Shown piece after piece: positions 20,024 to 24,775 of a stretch of DNA of 51,901 bases. Numbering within the stretch: the stretch's first letter is position 1; each line of letters begins with the position of its first letter. The notes beneath the pieces are model-generated. The model ran no database searches and was not told the origin of the DNA. It was given only the letters and a program-made list of their open reading frames with translations. The stretch is from Lachnospiraceae bacterium NK4A179 (lineage in GTDB: Bacteria > Bacillota > Clostridia > Lachnospirales > Lachnospiraceae): contig ATWC01000021.1 of NCBI GenBank assembly GCA_000421045.1, positions 1-51,901 on the forward strand. The letters run 5' to 3'. Position numbers and translations under genes: made by a program.

Positions 20024-21262
20024 TCAGTTGTCCTTGATGATCTCTGTTATCCTGACACCGAATGATTCTTCGATGACAACTACTTCGCCCTTGGCTACAA
20101 ATTTGCCGTTAACGAGCACATCTATAGGCTCACCTGCGATCTTCTCAAGCTCTATGATCGTACCCGGTGCAAATTCAAGAATATCATGAATGGATTTCTG
20201 TGTACGTCCGAGTTCAACCGTAACCTCGAGCGGCACATCCATGATAAGGCCTATATTTTCCTTTCCGATAAGAGCTGCCATATCCGGCGTGAATGCCTGG
20301 AACTGCGCCGGCTGAACATTCATCTGCGGCATGGTCGGCATAGCATACTGCTGCGGAGGAGGCATCATAGGCGCCCCCGCAGGTGCACCATATCCTGCAT
20401 ATGGATCAGGCGCTGCTGAAGGTGTAGGCATTGCTGCAGCCATAGGCATAGGTGCAGGCGCAGGTGCTGCTGCCTCAGCTGCTTCTGCTGAATCAGAACC
20501 ATCCATTTGACTCCCCATAAATATCTCATAAAGTGATTTCGCAAATTTTAAAGGATAGAGCTGCATGATGGTGGAATCCACCAATTCGCCTATCTGCATA
20601 CGAAATGCTATCTTGACAAATGTATCCTCTTCAAAAGGATTATTTTCTTTACCTTCTCCGATTATCTCATTTATCTTCACGAGACTGGCTTTGGGCGGAG
20701 ATATGTCTATCTTCTTACCCATCATCGAAGAAAGAGAAGTTGCCGATGATCCCATCATCTGGTTCATAGCTTCTGAAATCGCAGAAAGATGAAGTTCTCC
20801 GAGTTCTCCATCGATATTGGTTCCATCGCCGCCCATCATCAGGTCTGTGATGATCTTTACATCACGTTCGGCAAGTATAAGAATATTTGAACCGGCAAGC
20901 CCTTCCGTATACTGGATCTCAATAAAAACACAGGGTGCGGGATATTCCTCAAGCACCGTATCCCAGTTGGCTATAGTAACCATCGGTGTGGTAATGCTCA
21001 CCTTCTGGTTAACAAGAGAAAACAGCGTGGTCGCACTCGTTCCCATGCTGATATTGGCTATCTCGCCTATGGCATCTTTTTCTATGTCGGAGAGCAGACT
21101 CTGGTCAGGTTCACCTGAACCTCCGCCGTTTCCGCTGCCGGCTGAATCCGACGTATCAGCCGATGTCATATCAGCTGCGCCGCTGCCGGAAGCATCCGCA
21201 TTGTCAATATCCATACCGTTAAGGAGGGCATTGATCTCGTCCTGTGACAGCATTCCATCCAT
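20024..21262 (-). CDS. fliY: Flagellar switch phosphatase FliY
   Basis: A 412-aa protein with four parts. An N-terminal FliM-like CheY-binding peptide (LSQDEINALL) is followed by a Gly/Ser/Asp linker. A CheC-type phosphatase domain (about 60-255) has two E-x-x-N helices (IGEIANISMGTSATTL and LSAISEAMNQMMGSSATSL). A Pro/Met/Ala linker (about 265-325) precedes a C-terminal SpoA/FliN domain (MDVPLEVTVELGRTQKSIHDI to the end). It forms the C-ring with FliM and FliG and removes phosphate from CheY-P at the motor. Its ATG overlaps the fliM stop (TAATG), so normal translation is probably coupled to fliM, which the inserted element has interrupted. Confidence 0.95.
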   Translation of the reverse strand: MDGMLSQDEINALLNGMDIDNADASGSGAADMTSADTSDSAGSGNGGGSGEPDQSLLSDIEKDAIGEIANISMGTSATTLFSLVNQKVSITTPMVTIANWDTVLEEYPAPCVFIEIQYTEGLAGSNILILAERDVKIITDLMMGGDGTNIDGELGELHLSAISEAMNQMMGSSATSLSSMMGKKIDISPPKASLVKINEIIGEGKENNPFEEDTFVKIAFRMQIGELVDSTIMQLYPLKFAKSLYEIFMGSQMDGSDSAEAAEAAAPAPAPMPMAAAMPTPSAAPDPYAGYGAPAGAPMMPPPQQYAMPTMPQMNVQPAQFQAFTPDMAALIGKENIGLIMDVPLEVTVELGRTQKSIHDILEFAPGTIIELEKIAGEPIDVLVNGKFVAKGEVVVIEESFGVRITEIIKDN

Positions 21263-21560
21263 TAGCTTTCCTCTTCCTCCTCCCTGTAAACTGATGTGAT
21301 CCTCACGGCATAGCGGTCATGATCTGTTCCCGGCACAGCAGTGAACTTCTTATACATGCCCACGTACACATCCAGTTCATTTTCAACTCTTCTCTCAAGT
21401 CTTATGATATCTCCCGGCTGAAGCATAAGAAAATCATTAACTGCTATCTCGCTCTTTCCAAGCACTGCCTTGACCGGAACCTCCACCTTTTTAAGCAGGT
21501 TTTCAAGATCCTGCTTATGATCCTCTGAATCAGAGTTTGTCATATTAGTAAACCAGAATT
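21262..21560 (-). pseudogene. fliM: fliM 3' fragment (SpoA domain), cut off by the mobile element
   Basis: This is the C-terminal 98 or so codons of the switch protein FliM: FWFTNMTNSDSEDHKQ, then the SpoA (FliN-like) domain LKKVEVPVKAVLGKSEIAV to EIIRL-type strands and an acidic tail. It would join the 5' fragment (24080-24775) in frame as NTKF-WFTN. The open frame continues 40 codons into the element, up to a TTG at 21678 without a Shine-Dalgarno, and would add a hydrophobic element-derived N-terminus. I do not believe this chimeric ORF is a normal product. The stop overlaps the fliY start (TAATG). Confidence 0.9.
21556..21560. repeat. Left copy of 5-bp direct repeat GAATT flanking the element
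   Basis: GAATT at 21556-21560 matches GAATT at 24080-24084. The uninterrupted fliM would have one copy (AACCA-GAATT-TAGTA on the plus strand). It behaves like a target-site duplication, although a duplicated target is not usual for IS91-type elements. The first or last bases could equally belong to the element ends. Confidence 0.7.
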
Positions 21561-21761
21561 GAACAAAATCGCTGCGCGATGGCCTGCCTAGGCTGTGTGC
21601 AGTGATTTTCTTTTTATCAAAAAGGCAGTAGAAAGTAAGTCCTAATAGTAGTATTGTTGTAGTCGCGAAACTTAACAATCAAACAGGATTATTACTAACA
21701 CTGCCATGAAAAGAATATCATTCGCTTGTGCAAAGTACAAGCATCATTTTGATGTACATGC
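21561..21761 (+). other. Non-coding left end of the element with small hairpins
   Basis: Contains ATCGC-tgc-GCGAT (21568-21580) very close to the left boundary, then GCCT/AGGC nearby. GCTTGT and ACAAGC pair (21724-21742, 7-nt loop), followed by CATCA/TGATG. Sub-terminal hairpins of this type are recognition or termination sites in single-strand transposition, so this end may be one of the two functional ends of the element. No open frame on the plus strand is supported here. Confidence 0.5.
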
Positions 21762-21809
21762 ACCTCCGAAGTTTTAGTTGTTCCTATCAATGACTATACT
21801 TTCGGAGGT
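21762..21809 (+). promoter_or_regulatory. Hairpin that masks the ribosome-binding site of the recombinase gene
   Basis: ACCTCCGAA (21762-21770) is the exact complement of TTCGGAGGT (21801-21809), which contains the Shine-Dalgarno GGAGG of the recombinase gene (ATG at 21816). The loop is 30 nt. In a transcript that enters from outside the element the ribosome-binding site would be sequestered. Such shielding is known for several insertion sequences (for example IS10 and IS200), where it limits transposase made from read-through transcripts. Here it would guard the first gene and, by the overlap, the transposase too. Confidence 0.7.
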
Positions 21810-21815
21810 TTTACT

Positions 21816-22664
21816 ATGTATGATGAATATTTGAAAAAACTTGATGAAGCAGGAAAAATACGCAATCTTAAGGAGCGTTCTATATCCTGCTATCATAACT
21901 ATGTTGCTTATTTTTTAAACTATGTCGGAAAAGATCCTAAGGAACTTACCTGCCAGGATGTACGCGATTTTCTTCTGAGCAAAAAAGATGAAGGTTTAAA
22001 AGCTACTACCTTGAATCTCTATAACTCATCAATTCGCTTTTTTTACAAGTTTGTTCTCGGCATACTTTGGGATGAGATTTTAGTTCCACGCATGATAAAA
22101 GATCAACCTTTGCCAGTAGTCCTTACATTGGATGAAGTTAATCTCTTTCTCGATAACGTTGAGGATATAAAATATAAGGCAATGTTTGCAACCATGTATT
22201 CTTCTGGAATGCGTGTATCAGAAGTCATACACTTGCATTATGATGATATTTCCAGATCAAACATGCAGATTCATGTACGGAATACTAAAAACCGCATGGA
22301 CAGATATACTATTCTCTCAAAGAAAAATCTGGATATACTCACCAGATATTGGTTTGAGAGAAATCGCCCCACCGGTATTCTTTTCCCAAACAGATTCACA
22401 GGAGAATATCTTACAGTAAGTACACTGGAACAGGTCATGCGCAGAGCTATTAAAAAGTCAGGTATTACGGCTAAGGCGACACCACATAGTCTAAGACACA
22501 GCTTTGCAACACATCTCATGGAACAGGGAGTTGAACAAAAGTATATACAGACTCTTCTAGGGCACAGAGATCCCAGATCAACTGAAGTATACCTGCACAG
22601 AAGTAACAAGACTATTATGGGAATTCAGAGTCCTTTCGATATAGAGGACCATAGAGATGAATAA
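21816..22664 (+). CDS. Tyrosine recombinase/integrase of the element
   Basis: A 282-aa protein of XerC/D-like size. An N-terminal SAM-like core-binding domain (about 1-90) is followed by the catalytic domain with the full set of active residues: Arg133 (SGMRVSEV), Lys158 (TKNRM), His224 and Arg227 (PHSLRHSFATHL), His250 (LLGHRD) and the nucleophile Tyr259 (TEVYLHR). It would break and rejoin DNA via a 3'-phosphotyrosine. The start is supported by GGAGG at a spacing of 7 nt. Its stop overlaps the transposase start by 8 nt (ATGAATAA), so both are probably made together. Its role may be resolution of intermediates or site choice; this is inference. Confidence 0.93.
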   Translation: MYDEYLKKLDEAGKIRNLKERSISCYHNYVAYFLNYVGKDPKELTCQDVRDFLLSKKDEGLKATTLNLYNSSIRFFYKFVLGILWDEILVPRMIKDQPLPVVLTLDEVNLFLDNVEDIKYKAMFATMYSSGMRVSEVIHLHYDDISRSNMQIHVRNTKNRMDRYTILSKKNLDILTRYWFERNRPTGILFPNRFTGEYLTVSTLEQVMRRAIKKSGITAKATPHSLRHSFATHLMEQGVEQKYIQTLLGHRDPRSTEVYLHRSNKTIMGIQSPFDIEDHRDE

Positions 22665-23808
22665 GCCCACAGTACAGGACATATTTCTGAGATTCTATCC
22701 TGATTACTTGGAAAAATACGCCCCATCTCCGGAACAGTCCAAAGTTGCTAACGCCATCATGAATTGTAAGACTTCAAGGATGGGTGCAAATGTACAGGTA
22801 TGTGAAGACTGCGGTTGTATTTCAATCCATTATAATTCCTGCCGGAACAGGTGTTGCCCCATGTGTCAGGCCCTTCCTAAGGAAAAGTGGATGGATATGC
22901 GCAAAGAAGATGTCCTGGATGCTCCATATTTTCATCTTGTCTTTACAGTTCCTGCTGAGTTGAATCCTGTTATCTACAGTAATCAAAAGCTTCTTTATGA
23001 TACTTTGTATCATGCTGCATCAGCCACAATAAATGATCTCTCTGCTCAGGATAAATACCTTGGCGCAAATGTTGGCTATATCTGCATACTGCACACATGG
23101 GGATCAGAAATGAATTATCATCCTCATATACACACAATACTTTTGGGTGGGGGTCTCGACAAAAACAAACACTGGAAAGATAAAGGTGATAAGTTCTTTC
23201 TTCCAATACAGGTGATCTCAAAAGTATTTCGAGGTAAGTACATGGAAGAACTAAAGAGTTTATGGGAAGATGGAAAGCTGAAGTTTTATGGTTCATCAGA
23301 AAAATATCAGAACAGGTATGAATTCAAAGCTTTACTGGATACCTGTTATTCCAAGGAATGGATTCCCCACTGCAAGAAAACCTTCAATGGTGCTCAATCA
23401 GTAATCAAATACCTTGGCAAATATACCCATAGGATAGCCATAAGTAACTACAGAATCATTCGCATCAATGATGAAAATGTGACATTTTCTGTTAAAGACT
23501 ACCGTAATGCAGGTAAATGGAAGGAGCTTACCATAAGTGGAGTTGAATTTATAAGGCGTTTTCTTATGCATGTTCCGCCAAAGCGTTTTGTAAGAATAAG
23601 GCATTATGGATTGTTGTGCAGCCGCATGAAGAACAGCAATCTTACTTTATGCAGAAATCACCTTGGATGTAAAAAGTATATATCTGAGCTTAGGAATATG
23701 ACATCCTCTCAGATATTGGATCACCTATGGGGATTCAAGGTAGGTATATGCAAGCATTGTGGTGGGAAAGTCATAGATCATCATAGACAAATGCCCAGGC
23801 TTTGTTGA
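22657..23808 (+). CDS. IS91-family transposase (HUH, two-tyrosine)
   Basis: A 383-aa transposase with an N-terminal zinc-binding domain (cysteines at 49, 52, 54, 62, 66, 67 and 70) and the Y2 catalytic domain. The HUH metal site is HPHIH (155-159), and the two tyrosines lie 4 residues apart in YLGKY (Tyr252 and Tyr256), exactly the IS91 arrangement, followed by THRIAIS. A Cys-rich C-terminal tail (CKHCGGKV) is present. It acts by nicking and single-strand transfer in a rolling-circle mode. The reading frame is intact. It overlaps the recombinase gene, so translation is coupled. Confidence 0.95.
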   Translation: MNKPTVQDIFLRFYPDYLEKYAPSPEQSKVANAIMNCKTSRMGANVQVCEDCGCISIHYNSCRNRCCPMCQALPKEKWMDMRKEDVLDAPYFHLVFTVPAELNPVIYSNQKLLYDTLYHAASATINDLSAQDKYLGANVGYICILHTWGSEMNYHPHIHTILLGGGLDKNKHWKDKGDKFFLPIQVISKVFRGKYMEELKSLWEDGKLKFYGSSEKYQNRYEFKALLDTCYSKEWIPHCKKTFNGAQSVIKYLGKYTHRIAISNYRIIRINDENVTFSVKDYRNAGKWKELTISGVEFIRRFLMHVPPKRFVRIRHYGLLCSRMKNSNLTLCRNHLGCKKYISELRNMTSSQILDHLWGFKVGICKHCGGKVIDHHRQMPRLC

Positions 23809-23985
23809 TGTATACAAGCCATACGTTCAAGAGCCTCGCGCAAGGGAGGTCTATTTCTGATACCCTAAATTCAAAAAATCAAAAGACATAAGATATGTTA
23901 TTATCTAATTAGACAATAAAAACTGGTAAGCTCCAGGAATTAAAACTCCATATGTATCGGCTACACGGACGCTTACTTTGTTCAA

Positions 23986-24078
23986 TTAGGTTAAATCGCA
24001 ATAAGATCAAACGAAAGGGCAGTTATTGTTATAATTCAAGCTGCTTTTTCGTTTGACCTTACAGCGATTCTAACCTAA
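23986..24078. repeat. Large imperfect terminal hairpin at the right end of the element
   Basis: Left arm 23986-24016 (TTAGGTTA, AATCGC, TCAAACGAAA) pairs with right arm 24047-24078 (TTTCGTTTGA, GCGATT, TAACCTAA) at all but a handful of positions. The stem continues inward through GGGCAG/CTGCTT using G-U pairs. The outer end of the stem is 1-2 nt from the fliM junction. IS91-type elements have a palindromic end of this sort, used as the replication origin or terminator. It would also act as a strong structure in fliM read-through RNA. Confidence 0.75.
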
Positions 24079-24775
24079 AGAATTTAGTATTCAGGTTATC
24101 TATTATCGTTTCTATGGTCAGATAAGGGATACAAATATTTAAAAATCCCTCCACTTCGGCCATCTTTACATTGAGAGTCACTATCGCGATCATCTCATTA
24201 GGTGCTATGATCTGGGCAAACTGTGTGTTTGTCTCTATCCTTTCGAGCACCGGATCAACCTCTATAACATTCTTCCACGGCTCTCTTAAGAGCTGTGCGG
24301 AGATGGTGATTATCTTATAGAGTATGCCCATCTCTATCTCGGAGAAATCCCTGACCTTGTCTATGGGCTCTCCGTTGCCTCCCAGCATCCTGTCTATGAA
24401 TGCATAACCAAGAGAACTTGTCAGATCTATAAGGATGTTTCCCGAAAGAGGCTGAAAATTTATGATGCCCAGTATTACGGGATTTGAAAGAGCATTCGTA
24501 AACTCATTGAAAGTTACGGTCTCGGATGAGACCACACTAACCTGTATATTCTTCCTAAGATAAACAGGGAGATTCGTGGACAGCAGTCTGCCGTAATGCT
24601 CAAATATCAGTTCCAGGGTGCGGAGGTGTTCCTTGGAGAACTTTGCAGGACGTTTGAAGTCATAATTCTTTATAGTACGCTCATCCGCATTTTTCATCTC
24701 CTCGGCATCAACTTCGCCGGAAGAAAGAGCTGACAGGAGGCTGTCTATCTCCTCCTGCGACAGTATATCGCCCAC
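24059..24775 (-). pseudogene. fliM: fliM 5' fragment (switch protein), truncated by the mobile element
   Basis: A 238-codon open frame: 232 codons of FliM plus a six-residue tail (FRLESL) from the element and a stop within it. The N-terminal CheY-P binding peptide (LSQEEIDSLLSAL, 5-17) is followed by the whole middle domain, which binds FliG (FSKEHLRTLELIFEHYGRLL through DLTSSLGYAFIDRMLGGNG to LNICIPYLTIETII). The C-terminal SpoA domain needed to enter the C-ring with FliY is lost. FliM normally is about 330 aa; the two pieces sum to about 329. It begins 41 nt after fliL. A truncated product could still titrate CheY-P or FliG. Confidence 0.92.
24080..24084. repeat. Right copy of 5-bp direct repeat GAATT flanking the element
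   Basis: Second copy of the repeat at 21556-21560. Removing the element and one copy gives the codons AAA TTC TGG TTT (KFWF), which fits the family sequence at this position. This is the strongest support for the chosen boundaries. Confidence 0.7.

Follow-up and report, generated by a model that had tools for sequence, protein, structure and literature searches.

A transposon of the IS91 family that carries an accessory tyrosine recombinase interrupts fliM in a Lachnospiraceae bacterium and may insert as a folded single-stranded circle

The window analyzed here is a 51,901-nucleotide (nt) stretch of Lachnospiraceae bacterium NK4A179 (contig ATWC01000021.1), part of a 3.22-Mb draft genome in 73 contigs, and all coordinates are positions within it (Table 1). 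Its flagellar gene fliM is split by a mobile element, as a sequence-only reading of the window had proposed, and judged by its genes and ends that element is a transposon of the IS91 family that also encodes an accessory tyrosine recombinase, Xer/IntI-like in type. The break in fliM alone would be an ordinary transposon knock-out, and it is the element that is of wider use. Its sequence leads us to favor, with moderate confidence, a reaction in which the HUH transposase would make single-stranded circles and the recombinase would insert the folded joint of the circle by one strand exchange, leaving no target duplication. We consider it an even question whether such elements form a two-enzyme transposon class in Bacillota and Pseudomonadota, pairing an HUH circle with a self-encoded Xer-like recombinase that exchanges one strand to insert the folded joint into a double-stranded target; a member of this class would in effect be a self-mobile integron cassette and possibly an evolutionary bridge between IS91 and integrons. 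The two-arm target, paired ends, and cassette-like folding are apparently new as far as the open-access literature shows, ISfinder and subscription papers being outside the scope of that search.

Table 1. Coordinates of the element, its predicted functional parts, and the adjoining genes in the window
Feature	Coordinates	Strand	Details
IS91-family element with accessory tyrosine recombinase	21559..24082	+	2,524 bp, TTGAAC...AAAGAA; contig C46 holds an identical copy; ends shared with copies in other genomes
Left end: outer arm TTGAACAAA (21559-21567) and hairpin (21565-21609)	21559..21609	+	fold z -3.96
Tyrosine recombinase	21816..22664	+	282 aa, Xer/IntI-like; PF00589 128 bits, NCBIfam; PDB matches XerC-like, IntI4, XerA
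IS91-family HUH transposase	22657..23808	+	383 aa; NF033538 434.8 bits (cut-off 125), PF04986, PF14319
Right-end internal arm TTTGTTCAATT	23977..23987	+	complement of AA^TTGAACAAA across joined ends
Right-end hairpin AGGTTA...TAACCT (23988-24076), then terminal spacer AAAGAA (24077-24082)	23988..24082	+	fold z -6.54
Target left arm GTAAA (21548-21552) and 6-nt spacer CCAGAA (21553-21558)	21548..21558	+	native fliM sequence
Target right arm TTTAG	24083..24087	+	native fliM sequence
fliM 5' part	24083..24775	-	231 native codons, FliM middle domain; frame continues 6 codons into element, to 24059
fliM 3' part	21262..21558	-	98 native codons plus stop, C-terminal domain
fliY, next operon gene	20024..21262	-	NF005995, 466 bits

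Genes, Target, and Ends of the Element

The transposase lies far above the curated cut-off of NF033538, and its translation holds KYLGKY, that is, two tyrosines four residues apart, the spacing given by Y249 and Y253 of IS91 (PMC5714925). No solved structure similar to it by sequence was found. The recombinase gene sits directly upstream, and the two reading frames overlap by 8 bp. Copies in other genomes, with variable flanks, fix the ends of the element as TTGAAC...AAAGAA, with a TT at the edges that can be assigned to either side, and comparison of edges among these copies indicates insertion without target duplication, as expected of IS91.

The flanks of these copies describe the target. 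The 83 left-end rows include 78 with at least 25 nt of flank, and the 74 distinct flanks among them (one of which is the right end of another element, at locus L070) share a CAAATTCNRA-like motif directly outside the left end. On the other side, 15 distinct right flanks give TTTG(T), with T at +3 in all 15, G at +4 in 12, and T at +5 in 11; the search pattern for right ends, which tolerated up to 4 changes and missed diverged right ends, itself includes the TT at +1 and +2, so that the flanks are independent only from +3. The target consists of two inverted 5-nt arms that flank 6 nt, and the element joins it where the right arm begins; at the 12 sites where both flanks are available the arms match at a mean of 4.17 of 5 positions. 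The left hexamer takes 48 different forms among the 74 sites and reads AAAGAA once, at a tandem junction, which indicates that the spacer is not exchanged.

The two ends of the element are complementary in a way that becomes apparent when they are joined. The right-end hairpin is much stronger than in shuffled sequences and carries compensatory changes at 9 of 33 pairs over 11 elements. It is preceded by an internal arm whose full complement is present only once the ends are joined, and in that state they fold into a single hairpin that contains a 4-nt bulge (-43.9 kcal/mol). In an initial set of 16 elements, the arms match at 11 of 11 positions in 12, at 10 in three, and at 8 in one. In a larger set of 26 elements, for which both genes, the transposase C terminus, and 150 nt downstream were needed and left ends were taken by motif alone, outer and internal arms pair at 9/9 positions in 18, 8/9 in five, 7/9 in two, and 6/9 in one. 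Out of 200 shuffles, 0-3 reach the observed score when an element pairs at 9/9, 5-24 when it pairs at 8/9, and 129-200 for elements with poorer pairing. Two transposase copies with stops (L180 and L181) gave no row in this comparison; by eye their ends are partly complementary only.

An altered outer arm often comes with a matching alteration in its partner: GTGAAC faces GTTCAC in L116, TTGAACG faces CGTTCAA in L182, and TTGAACC faces GGTTCAA in L186, the last pairing recurring in a gene-less element (L074). In L185 the complement extends over 13 bases, of which the first is mismatched. The elements L182, L185, and L186 were first spotted by a complementarity search and are to that extent favored; in the 26-element comparison the motif alone defined where their left ends lie. 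The arrangement is that of an attC-like site, with complementary arms around a hairpin that meet only in the joined ends (9/9 in 18/26). An attC site is likewise a folded site that spans the joined ends of a circular cassette.

A similar arrangement is seen farther afield. The same two genes occur at seven Bradyrhizobium plasmid loci, two of which are one shared site (10 of 953 plasmid records were listed and 8 fetched). Here the left end is GATTGAACGAAG in 5/7, the other two having T in place of one G, and CTTCGTTCAATC is present in the right end of the 6/7 loci whose right end is complete.

Proposed Insertion Reaction and Competing Explanations

We propose that the HUH transposase, by analogy with IS91, peels off one strand and closes it into a single-stranded circle. 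The joined ends would then form a long hairpin in which TTGAACAAA of the left end pairs with TTTGTTCAA, which directly precedes the right-end hairpin, while the terminal hexamer AAAGAA would stay as a mostly unpaired spacer; complementarity and covariation are observed, and folding of the joint in the cell is what they would imply. In the joint the order is inner arm, 6-nt spacer, ^outer arm, and the double-stranded target repeats this layout with an ACAAA-like arm, a 6-nt spacer, and a ^TTTGT-like arm. A single strand would be exchanged at ^ by the tyrosine recombinase, and replication could resolve the product, as with integron cassettes and CTX-phi.

Four features suggest that the recombinase carries out the insertion step, namely the arm-6-arm layout, exchange at one single point, a right spacer that stays fixed, and the folded joint, in all of which we see a parallel with integron cassettes and CTX-phi. 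The occurrence of the enzyme was surveyed at 20 IS91 loci chosen from 59 match rows, with the window recombinase as probe (E up to 1e-3). A recombinase lies upstream at 7/7 loci whose transposase is 40-57% identical to that of the window, and none was detected at the 13/13 loci, from six element groups, whose transposase is 23-28% identical. Two recombinase-less elements showed no end-to-end complementarity beyond that of shuffled sequences, in a free search that is weak for the window element too.

Several observations weigh against this reading. The circle, the strand, and the reaction are all predicted from sequence. Joining the ends adds only about 3 kcal/mol (-43.9 versus -27.6 and -13.3 for the separate ends); this gain is small, and it is position and covariation that carry the folding argument. 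When the longest complement is searched for freely, the result is weak by itself, 9 nt for the window element and a shuffle maximum of 9. Pairing is imperfect in 8 of the 26 elements, and a good number of the 26 are closely related to one another. L012, L099, and the second element of L070 keep TTGAAC opposite GTTCAC, and L183 and L184 pair no better than shuffled sequences. The joined-end pattern had 0 matches in viral contigs. By eye, the Bradyrhizobium flanks show no clear CAAA/TTTG arms, and the target of that group may be different. The fliM site itself, GTAAA-CCAGAA^TTTAG, is a poor target, ranking 63rd of 74 with a leave-one-out score of 4.07 (median 9.1). Finally, the recombinase does not qualify as an integron integrase, as it scores 152.3 bits against TIGR02249, for which the cut-off is 265. 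Its alignment with IntI4 breaks between query residues 170 and 198, where IntI4 has about 41 more residues between the two aligned blocks, a stretch that may correspond to the integrase-specific insert (I2) of the catalytic domain.

A simpler explanation is that ordinary IS91 chemistry suffices, with the HUH transposase alone cutting, circularizing, and inserting, the recombinase being a passenger or resolvase, and the matching ends being a subterminal inverted repeat read by a protein as double strand. Published descriptions of IS91 (PMC5714925) include single-stranded circles and the absence of direct repeats, covariation could also arise in inverted repeats that one protein binds, and a recombinase-less element (group A, four copies) also has a fixed right edge, GTTC in 4/4, with no CAAA-like left motif; its left edges share GATWA-like letters, and a left preference is therefore possible there. 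A two-arm target around 6 nt that is cut at the arm edge would, however, be typical of tyrosine recombinases and not of the 4-nt IS91 target, and the internal arm abuts the covarying hairpin so that the two become one stem when the ends are joined. We regard this explanation as possible though rather doubtful. Other accounts fare worse. If the recombinase also excised the element precisely, fliM could be on in some cells and motility phase-variable; the element does encode a recombinase, and with no target duplication a clean removal would restore the fliM site, but the full element was seen in none of 34 other genus genomes, copies lie at many different sites, and the fliM site is a poor target, so that such a switch seems improbable. 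An assembly artifact, with fliM in fact intact and the element wrongly joined there, appears more improbable still: the draft has 73 contigs and contig C46 starts at the left edge of the element, a sign that repeats were not all resolved, but both junctions fall at one point of fliM, the ends are those found in other genomes, and the target has the expected form. A last account takes the GAATT at both edges for a duplicated 5-bp target, as in a classical insertion sequence. This we can scarcely credit, as the transposase is of the IS91 family and other copies have left edges GTAC, CTGA, and CGCGA with the right end AAAGAATT unchanged. The repeat arises because the right end AAAGAA is followed by a target TT, and fliM by chance reads GAA at the left.

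The element shares features with several known systems. The pairing of IS91 transposases with tyrosine recombinases is already published, with 245 couples of an IS91 transposase and an XerD-like enzyme in 15 phyla (PMC9208149). The window element shares with them the IS91 transposase and adjoining recombinase; ends, target, and role are not given in the available part of that paper, whereas the window element shows a two-arm target on both flanks, paired ends, and a recombinase directly upstream in an overlapping frame. IS91-type elements often adjoin a tyrosine recombinase (PMC9208149), and no role for it was found in the open-access literature. If a recombinase does insert the folded single-stranded joint, its role next to IS91 would be accounted for; two ends and one target would then suffice for a small test, and the integron reaction would gain a simpler relative that can be studied.

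Integron cassettes undergo single-strand recombination with replicative resolution (PMC4792948). Like them, the element has its exchange point at the circle junction, and the first bases of the linear form complement an arm beyond the terminal hairpin, so that the full site exists only with the ends joined; unlike them, it brings along both a recombinase and an HUH transposase, and its insertion sites are scattered. The circular DNA of CTX-phi is single-stranded and contains a folded site, which XerC/XerD integrate by exchanging one strand at a target with a 6-nt central region (PMC3089051). A folded single-stranded circle and one strand exchange are what we propose for the element, and the 6-nt target center is common to both, but CTX-phi depends on host recombinases and dif, whereas the element supplies the recombinase itself and is found at many sites. 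Strand-biased circularizing integrative elements have tyrosine recombinases and a strand bias (PMC9345347); the available part of that source mentions no IS91-type transposase as a component. Helitrons resemble the element in their HUH enzymes, a hairpin near the 3' end, and the absence of target duplication, but are eukaryotic, with no tyrosine recombinase partner noted in the partial sources at hand.

The Interrupted fliM Gene

The insertion lies in a minus-strand flagellar and chemotaxis gene cluster that spans flgB (39052) to the gene for a FliA-type sigma factor (5494). The best NCBIfam matches name flgB, flgC, fliE, fliF, fliG, fliH, fliI, fliJ, flgD, flgE, mot genes, fliP, fliQ, fliR, flhB, flhA, flhF, cheB, cheA, cheW, cheC, cheD, and the sigma factor gene. 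The earlier claim that the other operon genes look open received a partial check: 40 minus-strand open reading frames, not all of them within the cluster, were taken from a list of open frames and compared with NCBIfam. At the search thresholds applied, 29 of the 40 gave a match, in several cases with a score under the curated cut-off, and fliY was matched too.

Two open minus-strand pieces represent fliM. The first, 24059-24775, has the FliM middle domain (PF02154, 195.6 bits), and the second, 21262-21678, the FliM/FliN C-terminal domain (PF01052, 80 bits), and the insertion separates the two. They cover positions 1-231 and 224-318 of the 320 of TIGR01397, in place of the one continuous frame across the whole model expected of a functional FliM. 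Counting from the sequence, 2,524 bp separate native parts that total 329 aa, so that the earlier reading, which removed 21561-24079 and one GAATT, reached the right element length and product; where it had 232 and about 97 codons, the native parts count 231 and 98 here. FliM function is probably abolished. Loss of flagella is likely from what is generally known of FliM. The strain could be non-motile or a mixed culture, and laboratory or host adaptation could lie behind the insertion, as the earlier reading had suggested. On the minus strand the left-end hairpin resembles a terminator at 21580-21568 (a scan gave 7 such sites versus 2.3 in shuffles), and because this is the strand of the operon, fliY and later genes are possibly affected: their transcription may be reduced. 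No relevant report of fliM insertions was found in an open-access literature search.

A profile search of the 73-contig draft found fliM as a single copy, the third match (32 bits) being the C-terminal domain of fliY, and no second, intact fliM. All 34 other genomes of the genus have a fliM above the family cut-off, in 33 of them as one open frame of 326-354 aa; in the remaining one (G030) the gene is broken by contig ends at a different place. Comparison with relatives, which the sequence-only reading had suggested, showed uninterrupted nucleotides at the insertion point in 10/10 fetched. The TTT of the fliM target site corresponds to a synonymous AAA codon, and 9 of these 10 relatives have AAG there.

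Copies and Distribution

The insertion looks recent, as the earlier reading held, because a second copy of the element, which opens contig C46 at its left edge, is identical to the fliM copy over 2,527 bases. With eight candidates scored per genome, the full element was not seen in any of the 34 other genus genomes, and short or diverged pieces occur in six of them. The left-end 26-mer (up to 2 changes) is present in 37 of 397 genomes of a family sample that holds only three of the genus, and its reversed control in none of the rows from that sample. Taken together, these results make the insertion look young and suggest that the element is at home in the host's family.

Other copies show further features. 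The second copy, on contig C46, ends about 60 bp before a same-strand open reading frame of 363 aa (L003:2589-3680). Five viral-classed contigs (IMG/VR; L190-L194) contain the exact left-end 26-mer, and the Bradyrhizobium plasmids (L195-L201) hold several 99.6-99.9% identical copies of the related two-gene element. At L070:401-7115, two different such elements stand head to tail with the joint AAAGAA/TTGAAC, and their recombinases are 73.7% and 57.0% identical to that of the window. The gene-less element noted above (L074:401-556) is 156 bp long and consists of two hairpins, a perfect one of 58 bp at the left end and then one of the right-end kind, and it stops at ^TTTGT; a 58-bp hairpin of this type is found in 5/83 left-end rows, and 15 left-end loci are without recombinase or transposase matches. 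The sequence CCTCC, CTCCT, or TCCTC occurs at about -26 to -10 in 12/73 left flanks (shuffle mean 2.8, maximum 8) and farther out in 6/73, as if copies often lay just upstream of the ribosome-binding site of a leftward-read gene.

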